This document shows, piece after piece, positions 1 through 62,005 of a DNA stretch of 64,000 nt (its first letter is position 1; each line of letters begins with the position of its first letter). A program made the position numbers and the translations under genes. The DNA is from a virus. The stretch is taken from positions 54,191-118,190 of IMG/VR virus record IMGVR_UViG_3300037882_001492; one strand, written 5' to 3'. Under the pieces are notes generated by a model that was not told the origin of the DNA, did not search any database, and worked only from the letters and a program-made list of their open reading frames with translations.

Positions 1-736
1 ACTGTTTTGACGAATTAGAAAATTGATATGATGATTTTATCAAACACCCATCCGTGTCAATTAGACCGGCCAACAATTCTAATCTATTTTTTCTAGAGTT
101 TATTAAATATTGTTTTGGAATAAATTTATTTTTACAAGAAACTTTATAAAGTTTATAAAATTTAAGTTTTTCAATAATCGGGTTTTTAGATGGGCCGGAA
201 TTAGGTTCAAGCCCTGCACTATATGTGCTGGCTTTACTTCCTTGTTTTCCGTATGCATTAATGTGCAGTTTTTCCTCCCCAACACTAAGACAATAATTAG
301 AAAAATATTCCCTAATTTCTTCGTCCATAGTTATAATCCTTGGAGTTTTTAAAAGGGAACCGTCCCCTAACATCGCTCCAATAAAGTAAGGCTCTAATAA
401 AACTTCCGCATGTGGAAACTCTACCTCACTTCTATACAAATTATAATCATATTTCTCTAAATCATATAATGAATCATAATCTTTAACTTTAATTGTTAAA
501 AATTCTTCTCGCTTCTTAAGACGATTAGTTTTTAAGTGCAGCAAATGGTCTGTGGTTACTGTTATTTCTTTCCCATTCTTAGGAATTATTTTAACCATTT
601 CACTTTTACCGCGAAATAACTTTATAACATTTCTTTCTTTAGAGTCCGGTCCCATTAATTTATCCCCAAGTTCTACATCCTCAACATTTTTTATAGAACC
701 GTCAAACATCAAAACTTTAGTACCAGATGCGTAACA
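1..736 (-). other. intein with LAGLIDADG homing endonuclease, C-terminal part outside window
   Basis: The intein begins at Cys codon 736-734 (CYASGTKVLMFDGS, a typical block A, close to the start of VMA-type inteins), followed by VEDVELGDKLMGPD and a block B TxxH motif (TVTTDHLL). The first endonuclease motif FIGAMLGDG lies near 390-360 and the second, LAGLIDTDG, at 73-47. About 245 residues are visible; blocks F and G and the C-extein junction are to the left of the window. The endonuclease motifs are intact, so the element may still be able to home. Insertion follows the conserved SDIKVAE stretch of the host glycosyltransferase, so splicing is needed to restore the donor-binding region. Confidence 0.88.
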
Positions 737-1645
737 TTCTGCAACTTTGATATCGGATTTTGAATCGTTAAAGAAATTATATTGTAATGGGGCAATAGCA
801 ATATCAATATTACTATAGAAGATGCCATACTTATCAATCGGTTGCGCCCAAAAGATTTCTACATTTGATCGTTTAGATCCAGCAGTTAGAATCTTTTGGT
901 AATTGTCCCAAACATCACTTTGCCAATCTTTTTTAGCACCAGGAGGAAAAAAAGGTCTTCCAAAGAAATTCCATTTAACTTTTTCAGGTCCAACTAACTG
1001 ATTTACAGCCAGCATTGTACCTTTAAATTCTTTTACATCTTCCTCATGGTGGATTCCGCCTACCCAACCAATTCTAACGGGTTTAGACTGATTCTTTGGT
1101 GCATTCCAATTCGGAAGGTTGTAATCAATAGCATTTTTAAGGATCGCTAAGGCACCAGATTTAATATAAGGTTTTACTCGCTCAGCAAACTTTCTTTGAG
1201 TTACAGTAACAAGATTTGAATGCTCATAAAGTAATTTAGTTAATTCGTCTAATTTCTTTTCTTTATAGGCAGCATAATGTCTATGCCCTTCGTATAAATC
1301 AGTAAGTAAATCATCTGTATCAAAATGATGGATTTTGCCTCTCTTTCTAGTTTCGTCTAATAATTGAACATTATATTGTGGTCCGAAATCGTGAATATTG
1401 CAAGTAAACACAATATCAGCCCATTCAATATCGGGAACTTTACTATCTGGATTTACAAAGATTTGAGTTCCTTCACCTTGCCGCCACTCTAAAGGATTTT
1501 TATTGAAGCGAACTTCGATATAATCAGATAGAGCTTCCTGTATTTTTTTACATGGAATAATAACCCGATATTGAGCGCACCCCCCTTCATTCGGAGGAAC
1601 AGCTAATAGGCGTAATTTTCTTGGAAGTTTAGGTAAATCTTGCAT
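1..1645 (-). CDS. GT-B (GT4-like) glycosyltransferase interrupted by an intein, partial
   Basis: The reading frame starts at ATG 1645 and stays open to the left edge (548 codons seen). Residues 1-303 are a GT-B-type glycosyltransferase: a Rossmann-like second half with IGWVGGIHH near residue 200 and the donor-site run SNIDIAIAPL followed by SKSDIKVAE, the usual GT4 'FN-x-SK-x-x-IKxxE' region. Residue 304 is a Cys that starts an intein instead of the expected YAAxGxPVV. The rest of the enzyme must lie beyond the window. It may glycosylate phage DNA, a virion protein or a host surface sugar; the sequence does not say which. It follows gp32 and a terminator whose U-tract touches this ATG; no Shine-Dalgarno is visible. 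I translated the frame by hand and found no stop. Confidence 0.8.
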   Translation of the reverse strand, partial: MQDLPKLPRKLRLLAVPPNEGGCAQYRVIIPCKKIQEALSDYIEVRFNKNPLEWRQGEGTQIFVNPDSKVPDIEWADIVFTCNIHDFGPQYNVQLLDETRKRGKIHHFDTDDLLTDLYEGHRHYAAYKEKKLDELTKLLYEHSNLVTVTQRKFAERVKPYIKSGALAILKNAIDYNLPNWNAPKNQSKPVRIGWVGGIHHEEDVKEFKGTMLAVNQLVGPEKVKWNFFGRPFFPPGAKKDWQSDVWDNYQKILTAGSKRSNVEIFWAQPIDKYGIFYSNIDIAIAPLQYNFFNDSKSDIKVAECYASGTKVLMFDGSIKNVEDVELGDKLMGPDSKERNVIKLFRGKSEMVKIIPKNGKEITVTTDHLLHLKTNRLKKREEFLTIKVKDYDSLYDLEKYDYNLYRSEVEFPHAEVLLEPYFIGAMLGDGSLLKTPRIITMDEEIREYFSNYCLSVGEEKLHINAYGKQGSKASTYSAGLEPNSGPSKNPIIEKLKFYKLYKVSCKNKFIPKQYLINSRKNRLELLAGLIDTDGCLIKSSYQFSNSSKQ

Positions 1646-5935: not shown

Positions 5936-8900
5936 TTATAATTCACAAACCCCATTTTTGCAAGTGTCCACAGAATCTACTACATCGACCAACTCACCTT
6001 CGATAATTAACTTGTCCAAGTCAACGGTTGCTGGATCAATTCTAGTAAGTGGTTCGTTTCCTCTGCTTCCTGCTTTATAGAAAGTGAAGCCTTTAATATC
6101 AGCAGCATAAGTAGTTAAAGTCTCTTGAATTTCGGGAGTCATTGTAAATGTCTCTGGTAGATTACAAGTTTTTGATACGGCTGAATCAATGAATTGTTGA
6201 ATAGTGGCTTGCATTTTAATGTGTTCTTCGGGAGTAACATCGTATGCACCGACTACATGTTCAACATTCTTTCCTTTCAAGTAAAGGTATTTAAACAACG
6301 GATCAACTACGATCTTTTCATTCCACACACTTCCAACCGTAGTGCGCCATCTACGCTTATAAATCGGAGAAAATATAGGCTCAATTCCTGTTGAAACCCC
6401 AAGCACCATTGCCGTACTTCCAGTAGGAGGAACAGTTAGTAATACCGCGTTTCTTAATCCGTTTAGTCTAATTTCTGTTCTAAGTCTAGCCGGTAAGGTT
6501 TTAAAATACTTCTCTTTTCTGAGTTTAGACCAATCATAAGCCTCAAACGAACCTTTATGTCTAGCCAAATTCATAGATGCTTTATAGGCCTCATATCGAA
6601 TAGTTTGAAACAGCCTTTCAGTAAACTCCAAACATGCCTCGCTACCATAACGATAACCGGCTTTAATTAGCATATAATGAAATCCCATTACCCCTAATCC
6701 AATTCTACGACTTCGAATACCGGCTTCTTTACATTCTGGAATTGGAAAATGGTTTGCCGTTAAAACATCATCTAAAAATCTAACACCGATTCTAACAGTT
6801 CGTGCAAGCTTTTTCCAATCTATTTCTCCATCATCAGATACCATATTAGATAAATTAATATTTCCTAAACAACAGTTCGAATATGCAGGTAATGGAATTT
6901 CGCCACAATTTGATGTAAAACCATATTCTGTTAAAAATGTATGGGTATTGTCGTCAACGGTTATATCATAAACATCTTCATAAATCTCTGTAGCTTCAAC
7001 ATTAACAATTCTAAGATAATCTTTCTCTGTTTTTAGTTGTTGATTCACGATGGTTTGCAAAGCTTCGTGTTTTCTCAAATGCGTAAGTGATAATTTTGTG
7101 CCTAATTTTTTCGATTGAGCTTCACAAATATTCACATCGTAGCGAACAAAACTCTTTCCATTTAATAATGAAATAGACTTTCTAACTTGACAAGACACTC
7201 CGATACATCGAAGCAGTTTTTTAACATCAAACGCCAACTTTTCATGGCAAGTAGTTAAATTTACATAATTGCCACTATTTTTAGAGTCAGTTTTTCGAAT
7301 ACAAACATGACCGTCAGAAGAAAACAACCCATCCAAATAACCTAAAATAAAATCCTCTGATGCTGTCCAGATACATTCTGGAAGTCCATTCTTTTTACCT
7401 CTATGGCCGAGACTATAAAAATAATCACAAAATTCTTTTGAATTCACATACAATTCATAGCAGCCTTTATTTAATCTTAAACGAGAGATATTTTTTTTCC
7501 TGGAATTAACAAAATCAGCCACAATATTCGCAATACCGTTTTCTGAATCTTCCTGAGAAAAAATAAACCCATAATAAGGACCGTTCCGTTTGTGGATTCC
7601 AGACCACCCATCGCCGTAATTCCACCCCAAAACAAAACCTTCTTCGTATGTTAGTGTAGATTTTTTATTTCCAAAATGTGGAGATACGGGATGATAAATC
7701 AAATCTCCTATCTGGAGGTCAGAAGTTTCCTTTTTTCTTAAATCTCCACAGTCAATTGAAATTTTATTATCTCGCTTACAATTAATATTTCTTGTAATTA
7801 TAGGCCATTTATGGTCAGGAGTGCAAAAGACTTCTGATTTATCATTAAATGTAATTTTATATAATTGTTTATTAATTCCTGATTTAAAAACTTTACACGA
7901 AACTAATTCCCCTTTGTAGTTAACCACTTTCGTATAAGGGGTAGTTTCGGCAAGGTCTTTTATTTTAAACCATCCATTTTCAGAATACACTAGCGTATCC
8001 CAACGAAGAGACGGGTTTGTTTGTTGCATAGTCTCGAAATAAGATACATTAGTATGAGAATTAGCGAAATCTAAATTATAGATTCCAGGTTCCCCACACT
8101 CAGTAGCGTTTTTCAAAATACTATGCCACAAATCTTTAGCTTTTAATACGGTTTGAACTGGATCTTCGAAAGTATCTTTGAAATGTTTTACATAGTGAAA
8201 CTTAGCAACTCCCAAAGCATCTTCGGCGGTTTTAGCAACTACTTTAATACGATCATTGCCTAGTTCAGAAATTCTATTAATTTCAAAAACATAATATCGG
8301 ACATGCCTTCCACCAAAGGTAAAATACCACTCCTCATCTTTATGAACCGCTTCCATAAATCTATCTGTAATTGCAACAGAAATATTGAAATTAGTCAGTT
8401 CTTTGCGGTCTAATTTTACATTCAGAAACTCTAATAGATCAGGATGAGTGATATTTAAAATACTCATAAGGGCGACCCTGCGGCTCCGTCCGGCCATTAC
8501 ATGGTTACCGATTTCATTAATCATTTTCATAACAGAAATAGAACCCGGAGCAGAGTATTTAATATTTTGAATATCTTCCCCTTTTGGTCTAATTTCACTA
8601 AAGTTTAGACCCACACCGCCTCCACCACATGAAATCTTATACATGTCGGAAATTGTTTTTCCAATACTGTCAATATTGTCGTTTGGAGTTAACGCATAAC
8701 AATTCAACATATTGTTATTCAATCTCCCGGCACCAAATAGAATTCTACCTCCTGGACAGAAATCACCTGAATTTATAGCATCGTAGAACTTCCTTTCGTG
8801 AACTTCTCGTTCTTCTAAAGGTTCCGCCATCGCAACCGTTTTTGCAACTCGCTTGGCACAATCTTTCCATTCTTCTTCACCAGGAAAAGCATATTTGTCT

Positions 8901-8950
8901 TTGAATATTGTTTCTGCCAGACTTCCTGGTTGTATAACATAATTACTCAT
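5936..8950 (-). CDS. nrdJ: class II (adenosylcobalamin-dependent) ribonucleotide reductase containing an intein
   Basis: 1004 residues, of which 636 are extein. N-extein 1-313: FCPGGRILFGAGR, NCYALTP (redox Cys) and GGGGVGLNFSEIRPKG, a pattern typical of class II enzymes. C-extein 682-1004 starts CGEIPLPAYSNCCLGNINL and ends in a CKNGVCEL tail with the redox Cys pair. The joined exteins read TNP-CGE, the radical-site N-x-C-x-E motif. No class I small subunit is nearby, which fits a B12 enzyme. It reduces ribonucleotides to deoxyribonucleotides for phage replication. ATG 8950 overlaps the GroES-like gene by 8 nt, and both share the promoter at 9294-9322. The class assignment rests on motif style. 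Confidence 0.92.
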   Translation of the reverse strand: MSNYVIQPGSLAETIFKDKYAFPGEEEWKDCAKRVAKTVAMAEPLEEREVHERKFYDAINSGDFCPGGRILFGAGRLNNNMLNCYALTPNDNIDSIGKTISDMYKISCGGGGVGLNFSEIRPKGEDIQNIKYSAPGSISVMKMINEIGNHVMAGRSRRVALMSILNITHPDLLEFLNVKLDRKELTNFNISVAITDRFMEAVHKDEEWYFTFGGRHVRYYVFEINRISELGNDRIKVVAKTAEDALGVAKFHYVKHFKDTFEDPVQTVLKAKDLWHSILKNATECGEPGIYNLDFANSHTNVSYFETMQQTNPSLRWDTLVYSENGWFKIKDLAETTPYTKVVNYKGELVSCKVFKSGINKQLYKITFNDKSEVFCTPDHKWPIITRNINCKRDNKISIDCGDLRKKETSDLQIGDLIYHPVSPHFGNKKSTLTYEEGFVLGWNYGDGWSGIHKRNGPYYGFIFSQEDSENGIANIVADFVNSRKKNISRLRLNKGCYELYVNSKEFCDYFYSLGHRGKKNGLPECIWTASEDFILGYLDGLFSSDGHVCIRKTDSKNSGNYVNLTTCHEKLAFDVKKLLRCIGVSCQVRKSISLLNGKSFVRYDVNICEAQSKKLGTKLSLTHLRKHEALQTIVNQQLKTEKDYLRIVNVEATEIYEDVYDITVDDNTHTFLTEYGFTSNCGEIPLPAYSNCCLGNINLSNMVSDDGEIDWKKLARTVRIGVRFLDDVLTANHFPIPECKEAGIRSRRIGLGVMGFHYMLIKAGYRYGSEACLEFTERLFQTIRYEAYKASMNLARHKGSFEAYDWSKLRKEKYFKTLPARLRTEIRLNGLRNAVLLTVPPTGSTAMVLGVSTGIEPIFSPIYKRRWRTTVGSVWNEKIVVDPLFKYLYLKGKNVEHVVGAYDVTPEEHIKMQATIQQFIDSAVSKTCNLPETFTMTPEIQETLTTYAADIKGFTFYKAGSRGNEPLTRIDPATVDLDKLIIEGELVDVVDSVDTCKNGVCEL
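6908..8011 (-). other. intein in RNR with LAGLIDADG-type homing endonuclease
   Basis: 368 residues (314-681 of the ORF). It starts with Ser (SLRWDTLVYSENG) rather than the common Cys, has block B TPDH (TxxH), a first endonuclease motif FVLGWNYGDGW, a second FILGYLDGLFSSDGHV, block F YDITVDDNTHTFLTEYGF and block G ending TSN, followed by +1 Cys. The residue before the terminal Asn is Ser, not the usual His. The insertion point TNP/CGE is a known hot spot in RNR genes. The +1 nucleophile is also the radical Cys of the enzyme, so unspliced protein should be inactive. Confidence 0.95.
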
Positions 8951-55010: not shown

Positions 55011-56002
55011 TATCGTTCATAAGTAAAAATATCGTCCCATCCTTTAGGGGAAGATTCGTTACTCGATTCTCCTAACGATTGCCTGAATTCTTCTGCTGTG
55101 ATTTTCAGACGAACAACTCTTGGGTACAAGGTTGTGTTATACCAACCAAGATCACCACGAAACTCCAAATCGTAATCCTTAACTATGCAAGGAACTTTAT
55201 CGTAAAGCGCACCGAACTTTAATTCAAAGGTTGGTGGTGCAAAAACACCATTCTTTTTACCTGATGAAGAAAGAACAGACGAACGAATAATATTAACAAA
55301 ATAATGAGCAAGAGTTTCAAAAGTTCTTATGATTTTAAGTCTTGGCGATTCTGTTAACCAATGTGCAGCAAACCCCCTTAATGCAAATAGGTTTTCTTGT
55401 GCATCTTCACCTAATGGAATTTCTTTATGTGCTGGCATTCTAGGCCCGTCACCAGGAGCCGAATCTGCTAAAACTAAAGTGTTTAAACGAGAACCGTCAT
55501 CTTTCTCTGGACCTTGTAATCTAAACTTATTGTTTGCCCCCGATTTATAGTCAGCGACGATAATCTTTCTTACCTGCTCAACCATTGCTGCCAACTCTAA
55601 TCGTTCGTTAAATGACAGCATTGAATTATAATTATCAAAAAACGATACGATATGTGGAATACTGAAATTGATTTCAATTGTTAGATTCTTAGCGCCAGTA
55701 TTGACATAAGTTCTAAACGGTTCATTTCTAAGAAGAATCTCATATTCTGCGTAATTTGCTTCTCTGGATTCTTTTATTACCGGATCTTCAAAGAATGGGA
55801 CTAAACGAGTTCTTGGAATTAAAGTTCCAGGAGTTGCGTCACCATAAATGAATTTCATATAGCCTCGTTGTTCCAAGGCTTTATCCATTCTAGGTAATGG
55901 GCTATCGCTTAAGAATTCATCATAGACAATATTTTCCTTGCCGCCAAAACCTAAAAAGTTTACAATGGCTTCTGTTCCCTGACGATAAATCGGATTAGGC
56001 AT
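55010..56002 (-). CDS. baseplate tail-tube cap protein, gp48/gp54-like
   Basis: 330 residues (T4 gp48: 364). The pattern APPTFELKFGALYDKVPCIV, a following 'DLGWYNTTLYPRVVRLKITAEE' type end and a long helix before it (NERLELAAMVEQVRKIIV) fit gp48/gp54 cap proteins that start tube polymerisation. It lies between tape measure and gp53. The N-terminus is not informative. Confidence 0.65.
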   Translation of the reverse strand: MPNPIYRQGTEAIVNFLGFGGKENIVYDEFLSDSPLPRMDKALEQRGYMKFIYGDATPGTLIPRTRLVPFFEDPVIKESREANYAEYEILLRNEPFRTYVNTGAKNLTIEINFSIPHIVSFFDNYNSMLSFNERLELAAMVEQVRKIIVADYKSGANNKFRLQGPEKDDGSRLNTLVLADSAPGDGPRMPAHKEIPLGEDAQENLFALRGFAAHWLTESPRLKIIRTFETLAHYFVNIIRSSVLSSSGKKNGVFAPPTFELKFGALYDKVPCIVKDYDLEFRGDLGWYNTTLYPRVVRLKITAEEFRQSLGESSNESSPKGWDDIFTYER

Positions 56003-57591
56003 TAGTTATTTGAATAAAGACTTGGTTTGATTTCTCTTGGAGGCCAAACAATCCCTCCACGATATTCCGTTTGTTTTTGTCCGGCGTTCTTCTTTAAAAC
56101 CATAAAAGAGCTTTTTGTATTATCAGCAATATCTCTAAAAATATCAATAGCGCCAATTTCTGATTGTTGGCGCATATTCTTTATCGTTTCTTCTAAATTT
56201 ATCTCTGGTCCAAATCTGTCCGAAGATAAAATTCCTTCGCTGCCTTTGCTATTTCTGATATTTGTTATGATTTCTTTAGCGCCACGATATGCCATTACCG
56301 TTGGATTTATGTTATAAAGAAACGAAATAATATCCCTAATCAAATTGATCACTTTTCCAATACTTTTTATTTCATCCCATATTCCAGTAAAAATAGGAAT
56401 CATGTGGTCGTTCCAAAAGGCTCTAATATTCTGCCAACCTCTTTCAAACGAACCTTGCATAGATTGAGCTACCGCTAAAAAATTATCCCAAGTAAGATTT
56501 TCCATTAACCAGTTGTGAATTGGTTTTAAATAATCAACAATACTTCTAATCCAACCGCTTATACGATCTGGACTTAAGTATTTGTACAAAATATCACCAA
56601 ACTTCTGAATTCCACTTACAATTTTAGGTTGGTAAGTTGTTAGAAGACTTGCAAGTTTCTGTGCTGCCATAGCAACATAAGGTAGAAACACTTGTACAAT
56701 CTGTCTCATGGATTCATTGATAGTTGCATAGAAATCCATTTGTGGTTTAGTTGCTCTTAATTCAGCATCAAACAACATAACCAATTCGTCTTGTTGAGCA
56801 ACAATCTCTCTAGCGGCAATTAGTTGATCGGCATCGAATCCTAATGCTTTTGACATTACATCATACATTGGGAATCCTTCACGACCTTGGACAAGAGGAT
56901 CTAACATATTGACCATGTTTTTAGACATAGCAACAATTTCCCTAATTCCAGCATCAGGACTTAAAACTCCACCACCAAGGACTTGCGAAGTCTTGAACGA
57001 TTGCAAAGTAGTACCAGCAAAGGTTCCTAGAAGTTTCTGAATTCCTGTATAGAATTGATCGCCTAATGCAGCGCCAGCGATTCTAACATTTCTTAAAAAT
57101 CCTTCCGAACCACCAGTTTTTTGAACTTGCATAACTTTCGAAACCTCAGAGAAAGATTTTTGAAGTTTTAACAAGTTTTGAGAGTTCCTATGCATTTCCT
57201 GAGAAAGTGCCATAGTCTCATCAAGAAGTTTGTTAGCCCCTTTTTCAGAAAGTTTTAAGACCTGAGTGTTAAATGCCATTTGATCTAACCATAATGACGA
57301 TCTAACATTTAATCTTTTTAACAAAGCAATTTGATCTACTTGTGCTTTTGTTAATTTATTTAAACCGGAATCCATTGCTTCGGTAAAGGTTTTAATACCT
57401 TCCGTGAATGTTAATCCTGTATTGTTTAAAATCTCAAATGGCTTTCTACTAAATAGAATTTGCTCTCTTCCGTAAGCAGCAAGATTTCTACCAAGTTCTT
57501 TAATTCCTGTTAAAAGACCATCACTTGCCTCAGTTTGTGCTGTGGTATTGTCGTGTAACGCCTCGATTAAATCTTGGAGATTTCCTTCCAT
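56002..57591 (-). CDS. gp29: tape measure protein, gp29-like
   Basis: 529 residues (T4 gp29: 590). Nearly all helical, with amphipathic and hydrophobic stretches (QIVQVFLPYVAMAAQKLASLL, 300-325; VINLIRDIISFLYNI, about 435-450) typical of tape measures that later enter the host membrane. Residue count would set a tail length close to T4. Located between the cap protein and a small structural gene. The assignment rests on composition, size and order. Confidence 0.8.
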   Translation of the reverse strand: MEGNLQDLIEALHDNTTAQTEASDGLLTGIKELGRNLAAYGREQILFSRKPFEILNNTGLTFTEGIKTFTEAMDSGLNKLTKAQVDQIALLKRLNVRSSLWLDQMAFNTQVLKLSEKGANKLLDETMALSQEMHRNSQNLLKLQKSFSEVSKVMQVQKTGGSEGFLRNVRIAGAALGDQFYTGIQKLLGTFAGTTLQSFKTSQVLGGGVLSPDAGIREIVAMSKNMVNMLDPLVQGREGFPMYDVMSKALGFDADQLIAAREIVAQQDELVMLFDAELRATKPQMDFYATINESMRQIVQVFLPYVAMAAQKLASLLTTYQPKIVSGIQKFGDILYKYLSPDRISGWIRSIVDYLKPIHNWLMENLTWDNFLAVAQSMQGSFERGWQNIRAFWNDHMIPIFTGIWDEIKSIGKVINLIRDIISFLYNINPTVMAYRGAKEIITNIRNSKGSEGILSSDRFGPEINLEETIKNMRQQSEIGAIDIFRDIADNTKSSFMVLKKNAGQKQTEYRGGIVWPPREIKPSLYSNN

Positions 57592-59192: not shown

Positions 59193-60098
59193 ATGGTAAA
59201 TTCTGTCTTCGTGGACGATCATAAGTTCCATATGTCTATTAATAAGGAGACAGGACTTTGGAGAGACTTTAAGAGTGGAGAAACCGGAAACTTTGTACAC
59301 TTAGTTGCAATCGTAGAAAACATCGGTTACAAAGAAGCAGAGTTCTATTTGCTTAAGAAACTATCAAAAGATCACTTTATTCTTATTGATGTTTTAAGAG
59401 AGAAGAATAAAACAAAGTATGAGTTAAGCCAAACCACTAACTCACTAAACCACTACAAGAATGATTTTCTTCCAATTAGAGAAGAAATGAAAATGTGGGG
59501 AAATCCGATTTACATTAAGGCAGTTGAGGAACTTGAAAAGCGTAAAATCAATTATACGAACAAAACCTTCTATGTCGCTTATCAAGGTCGTTTCGTCAAT
59601 CGTTTAATTCTTCCTTATGAAAAGAATGGAAATCTTCATTTCTTTCAAGGACGAGCCTTAACTGAATATGCTAAACCAAAATACTTGAATCCGTCAAGCA
59701 AAGACGGCATTAAAGCAAGCGATGTTCTTTATCCGTTCAATACGCAGAAATCCTATGTGATTCTAACAGAAGGAGTTTTCGATGCTATTTCGTTACAGGA
59801 GCAAGGATTAAATGCCACTTGTGTTAATGGGGCTTTAATTAGTTTAAGCCAAGCATCCCAAATCAAAACTAAGAAAGTTATTCTTGCCTTTGATGGAGAC
59901 GATGCTGGTCGAGTAGGGGTTTTAAAAAGCAAGAAGGTTTTAGATAATTTAGGAATTAAAAGCTTTTATGTGTCACCGCCGCCGACTTTTAAAGATTGGA
60001 ATGAAGCGCATCAAAAAGACTTCGATCTACGAGCCTATTTCAAATCCGAAACTAAATCCTTTCTATCTTGGTATATTAGAAACGCTATTGTATCGTGA
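59193..60098 (+). CDS. DNA primase with TOPRIM domain (DnaG/gp61 type)
   Basis: 301 residues from ATG 59193. An ATG at 59115 is in frame but overlaps the start of the divergent gene. Residues 1-50 (ETGLWRDFKSGETGNFVHLVA) resemble the CHC2 zinc-binding fold without its cysteines. The RNA polymerase core is at 125-165, and TOPRIM motifs are VILTEGVFDAIS (189-200, E193) and LAFDGDDAGR (231-240, D234 and D236). It makes RNA primers with the helicase at 3309-4607. Its end overlaps the next gene by 14 nt tail to tail. Confidence 0.88.
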   Translation: MVNSVFVDDHKFHMSINKETGLWRDFKSGETGNFVHLVAIVENIGYKEAEFYLLKKLSKDHFILIDVLREKNKTKYELSQTTNSLNHYKNDFLPIREEMKMWGNPIYIKAVEELEKRKINYTNKTFYVAYQGRFVNRLILPYEKNGNLHFFQGRALTEYAKPKYLNPSSKDGIKASDVLYPFNTQKSYVILTEGVFDAISLQEQGLNATCVNGALISLSQASQIKTKKVILAFDGDDAGRVGVLKSKKVLDNLGIKSFYVSPPPTFKDWNEAHQKDFDLRAYFKSETKSFLSWYIRNAIVS

Positions 60099-61056
60099 AA
60101 TAGAATCTAGGTGAATAGATTGTTTCAGTCAATAAGGTAAACTTAAGATCAACCACATACACGCCTCTGATTGGACCGAATCCGTCGTTATTAGTTAAGG
60201 TCGCTAGAATCGCTGTATCAAACGAGAACAATACATCATCAGTCGCAGTAATCTCCACTAAACCAGAAGTATCAGAGAAACCCGAAACTTCTGGAAAGTT
60301 AGCAAATGCAGGGTCGTCGTTTGCTTTGCGAATTCTTATTGCGGCATTCTGAATTATTGAATCGCGGAATATGTTTTTAATAGATTCTGAAATATTTCTA
60401 TTGACGACAACAATATCATTAATAAATTTCAGATTGACTTTTTCACCGTATTGGATCTTAGTAGGTTCAAATCTTGTAGTAACTTTAGTTAATACTGGCT
60501 CTGCTAATCCAATGATGTTGTTTAGGTGTAAAGTAAACGATTGGATATAGGTTTTAACTCCGCCACCGTTAGCGTGTTGGATTGTCCAAATATCGAAGTA
60601 ATTTCCAGTCTGTAGGCCTGACGATGGGATGGAGATAACTCCACCTGATAAATTAAGACCAGAAGCCCCTGGCACTAAAAAGACAGAGAATTGACCGGCA
60701 ATTCCAGCCTTGTTTCGATAGATTCCACTAACGGAGTTTGTTGCTCCTGTAAATAAGGAAGGCGCTAGCAAACCGTTACCACTAAAATTAAAGACCATTA
60801 AATCGTTTGCAGACGAATTAAGTAATCCATAGTTTGTTGAATTAGCGTCTAAATCAAGAAACTTCTCTGGTAAACCATTTGTGACATATGGAAACTCCGC
60901 ACTTGACGCTGTAGTGTCTTTAAAGATTGTTACCGAAGAAACTGAATACGGATCAACATAAGATCCGTTTTGAATATAGAATAAGTCTAGTTTAACCCTA
61001 TCTTCGGTTGAAGGGCGGTTCTTTCTAGGAACTACAGAAATGCCATTAAAATCCAT
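60085..61056 (-). CDS. virion structural protein (putative)
   Basis: 323 residues, beta-rich with no membrane segment. The start FNGISVVPRKNRPSTEDRVK and the end VYVVDLKFTLLTETIYSPRFYF suggest a virion protein with immunoglobulin-like or jelly-roll domains. Not recognised. CTAAATA 6 nt before ATG 61056 and a position after the gp26-like gene point to late expression. Confidence 0.65.
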   Translation of the reverse strand: MDFNGISVVPRKNRPSTEDRVKLDLFYIQNGSYVDPYSVSSVTIFKDTTASSAEFPYVTNGLPEKFLDLDANSTNYGLLNSSANDLMVFNFSGNGLLAPSLFTGATNSVSGIYRNKAGIAGQFSVFLVPGASGLNLSGGVISIPSSGLQTGNYFDIWTIQHANGGGVKTYIQSFTLHLNNIIGLAEPVLTKVTTRFEPTKIQYGEKVNLKFINDIVVVNRNISESIKNIFRDSIIQNAAIRIRKANDDPAFANFPEVSGFSDTSGLVEITATDDVLFSFDTAILATLTNNDGFGPIRGVYVVDLKFTLLTETIYSPRFYFTIQ

Positions 61057-61061
61057 TTATA

Positions 61062-61226
61062 TTATTTAGTTTGTTTGTTCATTTCATTTAATATTTCAAT
61101 TAACTCTAATCTTTCTTTAAAAGTAAGTTCTTTAATAAAATCGAATGAAATCTCGGCTCTCAAAAATTGGGATATTTGGACAAAAAGTGCTTTTCGATTT
61201 AAGCAGTTACCAATATCCCTTACATA
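61062..61226 (-). CDS. 54-codon extension of the gp26-like gene in the -1 frame
   Basis: The frame is open from just after a TGA near 61250 to TAA at 61064-61062 and has no ATG, GTG or TTG before residue 22. The reading after the shift begins YVRDIGNCLNRKALFVQ and ends in a charged helix FKERLELIEILNEMNKQTK. The gp26-like frame has the heptamer A-AAT-TTT immediately before ATG-TAA, so a -1 slip would give a 314-residue fusion (260 + 54). Alternatives: a short protein from TTG in FLRAEI (about 33 residues) or a non-standard ATT start. Confidence 0.55.
   Translation of the reverse strand, partial: YVRDIGNCLNRKALFVQISQFLRAEISFDFIKELTFKERLELIEILNEMNKQTK
61063..61069 (-). promoter_or_regulatory. 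CTAAATA box before 61056 gene (candidate late promoter)
   Basis: CTAAATA, 6 nt (ATATAA), ATG 61056. It overlaps the TAA of the extension ORF. Confidence 0.4.
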
Positions 61227-62005
61227 AAATTTGAGTTTAACTCAAGTCTTGTAGTATTATCTTTCTTACAACTTTGACAGGAATAAATGAATTTGTTCTG
61301 CAAACCATAAGAGTCATCGAAAATTGCTTTTGAAAGAAGTAATGCTTCTGATGCTTTAAGGTTAAGAACCAACTTTTCAATTAAAGTTGTGTTCTCTGCC
61401 AAAGTGAAGGTTTTCCCTCCTTTACTTACGGATACGATAAAACGATATAAGTTCTCTAAGAAACTTGTTTCAGTTGTGAAATACTGCTCATCGTTTGCCA
61501 GAGCGCATCTAAACTTAATTTCCACTTCGGATTGTGGTAAAGTTATTGTACCGTAAAACGATTCCATTGGAGTCGGTCTATAATTGACAGGAACTTCACT
61601 AAGTTTCAAAGTAATCTTATTAGAGGTCTTACAGTAGTTACAAGCTGATTCTAATACATATTCGTCTCCAATACTTAATTCTCTGATTTTAAATAATAAG
61701 AACAGTTTATCAGGAATTGTTAGGGCGCGGGGTTCTTTATGACCTTCAACGCATGAGCGAAGCATTTGTTCAACGGCTTCACTTGATTTGTCTTTGTTAG
61801 AAAGAATTCTTGTGAATTCAATTTCGTCTTTGACTTTTAATGGTCTGACATTAACAGTTCCATTACATTCGTATTTTGAATAAAGAACTGGACTATTTGA
61901 TGGTAGTTTAAAGGACTGATATCCGATTTTAGCCTCGCCTAGCAGAAACTTCAAATCGTCTTCAATGGAGGCGACCGGGATATTTGCGGTATTAATTTCG
62001 CTCAT
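61220..62005 (-). CDS. gp26: baseplate hub protein, gp26-like (T4_baseplate family)
   Basis: 261 residues (T4 gp26: 208). A central part with CNYCKT (about 129-134) and CQSCKK (about 244-249) gives two CxxC knuckles for zinc; LTIPDKLFLLFKIRELSIGD precedes the first, a pattern typical of T4_baseplate proteins. It should act in hub assembly. ATG 62005 faces UvsW on the other strand. Its last codons contain a slippery heptamer, see the -1 extension. The zero-frame stop is TAA at 61220-61222. Confidence 0.8.
   Translation of the reverse strand: MSEINTANIPVASIEDDLKFLLGEAKIGYQSFKLPSNSPVLYSKYECNGTVNVRPLKVKDEIEFTRILSNKDKSSEAVEQMLRSCVEGHKEPRALTIPDKLFLLFKIRELSIGDEYVLESACNYCKTSNKITLKLSEVPVNYRPTPMESFYGTITLPQSEVEIKFRCALANDEQYFTTETSFLENLYRFIVSVSKGGKTFTLAENTTLIEKLVLNLKASEALLLSKAIFDDSYGLQNKFIYSCQSCKKDNTTRLELNSNFM

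Follow-up and report, generated by a model that had tools for sequence, protein, structure and literature searches.

Genomic context of the gp26-like locus

The window analysed here (64,000 nt) comes from a 118-kb contig of an uncultured phage and contains T4-like structural genes for a gp23-type capsid protein, a sheath protein and baseplate wedge proteins. Near one end, a gp26-like gene on the minus strand is followed by an extension in the -1 frame, with these features at and around the junction:

61220..62005, minus strand: gp26-like zero-frame open reading frame, 261 aa (PF12322, phrog_150, AF2 model), putative short tail assembly chaperone (TAC-N, G-like)
61231..61245, minus strand: inverted repeat TTGAGTT-A-AACTCAA, overlapping the heptamer (MFE -4.3 kcal/mol, z = -1.55)
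61226..61232, minus strand: slippery heptamer A_AAT_TTT (AAATTTT), in frame; relatives have T_TTT_TT[T/C] at the homologous position
61220..61225, minus strand: 6-nt spacer ATGTAA from the heptamer to the stem-loop, including the zero-frame stop
61062..61226, minus strand: -1 frame extension, 54 codons plus stop, predicted gp51-like C-terminal (T) domain of the long form (TAC-NC, GT-like)
61169..61219, minus strand: candidate stimulatory stem-loop with outer stem GGGATATT/AATATCCC (MFE -14.1 kcal/mol, z = -2.78)
56002..57591, minus strand: probable tape measure protein, 529 aa (weak match to phrog_167, tail length tape measure, E = 5e-4)

The 261-aa protein matched PF12322 (T4_baseplate) at E = 7e-21 and 75.3 bits, above the curated cut-off of 24.5, and phrog_150 at E = 2.1e-21, and it contains two CxxC zinc-ribbon-like motifs. 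Its AF2 model (pLDDT 87.7) had 63 matches at E ≤ 1e-3 in BFVD, many of them named as T4-like baseplate hub or gp26 proteins. A sequence search of solved structures gave no match; the top PDB fold match of the model, first among 350,542 chains, was the HK97 tail assembly chaperone 2OB9 (gp13), at a level that is not significant (E = 0.98, TMt 0.47).

The tape measure candidate, which would be the expected client of the chaperone, lies ~3.6 kb downstream of the gp26-like gene with other genes between. The product of the next gene downstream (60085..61056, minus strand; 323 aa) matched no family and may be a component of the tail or baseplate; in relatives L034-L041 the chaperone locus is followed directly by a gene whose product has the same conserved start (V[VI]PR[HK]NRP[ST]). 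Elsewhere in the window, the ribonucleotide reductase large subunit (1004 aa, 5936-8950, minus strand) is interrupted at residues ~329-673 by an intein that includes a LAGLIDADG domain (PF14890, PF14528), and a glycosyltransferase-like protein whose gene runs past the window edge (1-1645, minus strand) carries a Hint/homing-endonuclease-associated domain from residue ~300 (PF05203), probably also an intein.

A slippery heptamer and an open -1 frame at the gene end

The gp26-like gene ends CTT GAG TTA AAC TCA AAT TTT ATG TAA. An earlier note on this DNA, made from the letters alone, had proposed a programmed -1 frameshift here, and its reading of the site was borne out: A_AAT_TTT stands in frame two codons ahead of the stop, and after the slip the -1 frame has 54 more codons until it terminates at 61062. 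This frame opens five codons upstream of the zero-frame stop, and the junction of the predicted -1 product would read KF|YVRDIGNCLNRKALFVQISQFLRAEISFDFIKELTFKERLELIEILNEMNKQTK. The extension was also said to have no normal start near its beginning and to fill an otherwise empty gap of about 160 nt; the first ATG, GTG or TTG in its frame is indeed a TTG at codon 23 (61163), and the gap between the gp26-like gene and the next gene is 163 nt. The window has the arrangement of G/GT pairs, a -1 open reading frame that overlaps the short gene and has no start of its own.

How readily such an arrangement arises by chance was estimated from the phage itself. In-frame X_XXY_YYZ heptamers occurred at 0.0067 per codon in the window genes, which corresponds to about 4% for one heptamer in an overlap of ~7 codons. 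A heptamer in the -1 overlap together with a long -1 extension was present in only one of 46 window genes, the gp26-like one (53 codons, the next longest being 18 and 9). Stops in the -1 frame inside the phage's long genes occurred at 0.112 per codon, so that 53 open codons have P ~ 0.002, and none of the 1048 cases examined in these genes had a -1 open run that long. In a genome so rich in AT, in-frame heptamers are by themselves not unusual, whereas a 53-codon open -1 frame past a gene end is rare. Heptamer and extension together are not attributable to chance because the arrangement is conserved in relatives, as described below.

Two RNA structures lie close to the site. The inverted repeat to which the earlier note had drawn attention is present; however, its folding energy (listed above) does not look stimulatory, and it is probably incidental. 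A stronger stem-loop downstream had been missed. It begins 6 nt past the heptamer, a position typical of a frameshift stimulator; as few as 2 of 200 shuffles were equally stable, as were 3.2% of 60-mers on the minus strand, and its arm pair is the only such pair in the window. The stem-loop is not conserved in relatives, and neither a conserved downstream structure nor a Shine-Dalgarno-like stimulator was found in the nearest of them.

Conservation of the signal in related phages

The relatives were reached via the neighbouring helicase and then with a profile of the recovered gp26 genes; an alignment of 16 gp26 sequences spanning a wide range proved too diverse for scanning the collection. 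With the gp26-like protein of the window itself as query, a pattern search gave zero relatives and tblastn in GenBank phages gave two distant matches only. Counts for the window lineage refer to complete, distinct gp26-like loci (n = 26).

Alignment of the heptamer across related phages, a check that the earlier note had suggested, found a canonical heptamer conserved at the site in both groups. Within the window lineage, T_TTT_TT[T/C] stood at -19 from the stop in 25 of 26 loci, with G_TTT_TTT in the remaining one, and all 26 had a -1 extension of ~52-63 codons. RAEISFDFIKELTFKER of the window aligns with a core common to these extensions, [HR]C[GR]FSxxDVxxMTxxER, and the nearest relatives also share the gene order of a helicase on the plus strand and gp26, extension and next gene on the minus strand. 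Cyanophage-type loci carried T_TTT_TTC at exactly -13 in 80 of 80 cases (17 clusters at 70% amino acid identity), and in all of them the open -1 frame leads into a homologous domain of ~55 codons. The two Phe codons at the cyanophage-type heptamer never vary, although both codons are in use across the genes (TTT:TTC, 738:313) and both occur in each of the ten other columns of conserved Phe. T_TTT_TTC or T_TTT_TTT was likewise present in KVP40, VH7D, AS-szw, Moby, phiM12, OLIVR6, V45v66 and SRB7757, and in the jumbo phages 121Q, PA5oct, Phosso, Atu_ph07 and Vibrio 2.275. In XacN1 (L012 3300-3546), T_TTT_TTT precedes the gp26 stop by ~11 codons, with a -1 frame that stays open into the downstream open reading frame.

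The extension evolves as a protein in the -1 frame: between relatives L034 and L036 it differed at 11, 5 and 27 bases in codon positions 1, 2 and 3, with 21 synonymous and 10 nonsynonymous codons. On the basis of the relatives, the strongly preferred reading, first suggested in the earlier note, is that a programmed -1 frameshift fuses the extension to the gp26-like protein.

Alternatively, a sequencing or assembly indel, or decay of the gene, might have split one open reading frame, and the window does come from a virus contig known only from IMG/VR. The same break was nevertheless found in the same place, with both frames intact, in >100 independent contigs and isolate genomes. Sequencing error and a decayed gene were rejected given this identity across >100 records, and we consider the probability of either negligible.

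Slippage of the RNA polymerase rather than the ribosome might also produce a long form, and it is conceivable at the runs of 6-8 T present at the site in relatives. However, most relatives have exactly TTTTTTC, in phase with X_XXY_YYZ, and the AAATTTT of the window would be too short for efficient polymerase slippage; transcriptional slippage is accordingly highly improbable in our estimation.

The loci also bear on whether the extension could be a separate small protein (gp51), translated from a non-ATG start or by termination-reinitiation at the gp26 stop and never fused. A start codon for the extension lies ≤8 nt from the stop in 50 of 80 cyanophage-type loci, TAATG overlaps occur in KVP40, 121Q and 207E48.1, and separate gp51 genes are annotated in databases, all of which would suit such a protein. 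In the window, however, starting at the first canonical start (the TTG at codon 23) would cut the conserved domain, and 13 of 80 cyanophage-type loci, like many loci of the window lineage, have no ATG, GTG or TTG until 30-92 nt beyond the stop. Separate translation also leaves unexplained both the invariant TTT TTC heptamer and a -1 frame that is open through the site. We therefore regard a separate gp51 as very unlikely, if somewhat less so than polymerase slippage, and retain the programmed -1 frameshift.

Among the loci examined, only the window had A_AAT_TTT as its sole slippery site; the other holders of this heptamer (L035/L144, L021 and two cyanophage-type loci) also had a poly-T site. 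The window heptamer appears to be a drift variant of the site AAT TTT TT[T/C] present in L035 and L021.

The extension belongs to the gp51 family, and T4 differs

Searching the extension against phage proteins, as the earlier note had advised, succeeded only at the level of the family. The extension alone drew chance matches in tblastn and no significant match to phrog_634 (gp51), whereas a profile of 17 window-type extensions matched the small gp51 of cyanophages and their relatives (hhalign E = 1.6e-8, Prob 95.5); when searched singly, 7 of these homologous extensions also matched phrog_634. The link to gp51 runs through the relatives, and by these profile comparisons the extension belongs to the T4 gp51 C-terminal domain family (phrog_634).

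The earlier note had contrasted frameshifted tail assembly chaperones with a "gp26-like baseplate gene". This contrast was mistaken: T4 gp26 and gp51 are T4 tail assembly chaperones according to the passages of PMC10885494 and PMC12846349 that cite Vladimirov, Gautam & Davidson 2022 (PMID 34826709), and both are listed as hub assembly chaperones in PMC3004832. Some T4-like phages are described as having, rather than a frameshift, one short gene plus a second, longer gene that encodes a fusion, in the part of PMC10885494 that cites Vladimirov et al. 2022.

Comparison with T4 showed the same two domains in another arrangement. The short form of the window is gp26-like (PF12322) and its extension falls in the gp51 C-terminal domain family, as in T4; in contrast, T4 has two separate, divergently oriented genes without a slippery site, and the window has one locus and a -1 frame. 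T4 gp51 owes its greater length to an in-frame fusion: it combines a gp26-type domain (PF12322, residues 1-201) with a gp51 domain (phrog_634, residues 147-246). T4 gp26 and gp51 are related to each other (E = 2e-6), and the C-terminus of T4 gp51 is related to cyanophage gp51 (E = 4e-5). The end of T4 gene 26 reads GAG TTC TTT GAG TTA CTA TAA, in which TTC TTT replaces TTT TTC, so that the slippery site is absent in T4, where the second gene supplies the long form; it is also absent in EnA02, a close T4 relative. The gp26/gp51 pairs of cyanophages, KVP40 and jumbo T4-like phages, on the other hand, share with the window the two domains, the junction, the -1 frame and the position of the slippery site, and differ from it in having T_TTT_TT[T/C] instead of A_AAT_TTT and, in many cases, an ATG for gp51.

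Other arrangements at the same junction

Other arrangements were found in more distant branches. In the Gram-positive phages GXN1 (L005 3983-5000), SP-15 (L013 2501-3440) and LIS04 (L014 2501-3450), the extension that overlaps the gp26-like gene is in the +1 (or -2) frame; the three share xCC CGA TT[C/T] immediately ahead of the stop, and in each the tape measure gene directly adjoins the gp26-like locus. On comparison of these loci, the same chaperone appears to be made with the other direction of shift. In the Vibrio phages D531 (L029 1174-2130) and 207E48.1 (L033 1198-2102; Ackermannviridae), gp26 and gp51 are both retained and meet at a TAATG junction, but CTT TT[C/T] stands where others have the slippery heptamer, which suggests restart instead of frameshifting.

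Homologues that keep both parts in another form, named in the earlier note as potential evidence against a frameshift, thus do exist (the cyanophage-type loci with an ATG for the extension, these two Ackermannviridae-type loci without a canonical heptamer, and the second-gene fusion of T4). None of them is the window or one of its nearest relatives.

For the T4 superfamily as a whole, it is likely that a single-locus -1 frameshift from gp26 to gp51 is ancestral and near-universal. The two-gene state of T4 would then be a derived exception, reached by duplication and in-frame fusion with loss of the site; other branches would have turned to restart (Ackermannviridae, TAATG) or to a +1/-2 shift (SP-15, LIS04, GXN1), and the site of the window would be drifting to A_AAT_TTT.

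Proposed mechanism and comparison with known chaperone systems

We consider it very probable that this locus encodes the tail assembly chaperones of a contractile T4-like phage, a short form and a -1-frameshifted long form that make up a G/GT-like pair. The slippage, its rate and the function of the products are what we infer from the identity of the gene, the heptamer, the reading frames, their conservation and the homology of the extension to gp51; the chaperone role draws on homology and on the literature. Most ribosomes would stop at TAA and release the 261-aa gp26-like short form. A minority, with the Asn and Phe tRNAs on A_AAT_TTT, would slip back one base and pass the stop, perhaps with the downstream stem-loop as a candidate pausing element, giving a long form of ~315 aa with the 54-residue gp51-like domain.

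Lambda gpG/gpGT offers an analogy for the roles of the two products and shares with the window a short form and a -1 extension; a position just upstream of the tape measure gene is expected for such pairs, and in the window the tape measure candidate is downstream but not adjacent. No sequence similarity was seen between the two systems; the window has a T4-type fold with zinc-ribbon motifs, and its heptamer is A_AAT_TTT, whereas that of lambda is G_GGA_AAG. If the analogy holds, short forms would coat the tape measure protein and a few long forms would recruit tube or hub subunits via the C-terminal domain, and a fixed ratio of short to long forms would consequently matter. The lambda pair is among the frameshifted tail assembly chaperones (Xu, Hendrix & Duda 2004).

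Another parallel is the chaperone locus of Vandenendeviridae and Andersonviridae, which has a GTTTTT motif and a conserved -1 frameshift (PMC12846349). It resembles the arrangement proposed here for the window and its relatives in having a conserved -1 frameshift with a poly-T signal in a myovirus chaperone gene, and differs in belonging to another phage group. Since poly-T signals in T4-like phages are already cited as known by the authors of that paper, we regard the locus as another instance of an established mechanism. Potentially novel features are how widespread and invariant the signal is outside T4, and the A_AAT_TTT of the window.

Implications for gp26/gp51 annotation and subunit ratios

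The GenBank records of AS-szw (L027 1905-2073) and PA5oct (L009 3349-3580) lack the gp51 extension in their annotation, and across these two, Melnitz (L024 1896-2093) and OLIVR6 (L030 1845-2024) it is either unannotated or begun at an internal ATG and thereby truncated. The gp51 of cyanophages and vibriophages was noted in 2010 to be "truncated" by ~200 residues, without explanation (PMC3037559). The comparison made here explains this apparent truncation, their gp51 being the downstream part of a gene with a predicted frameshift, and exposes a systematic misannotation of gp26/gp51 in T4-like phages. It also identifies a putative tail assembly chaperone for a divergent, uncultured phage, and sets frameshifting, gene duplication and restart side by side as a natural comparison of the ways in which a virus fixes the ratio of its subunits.
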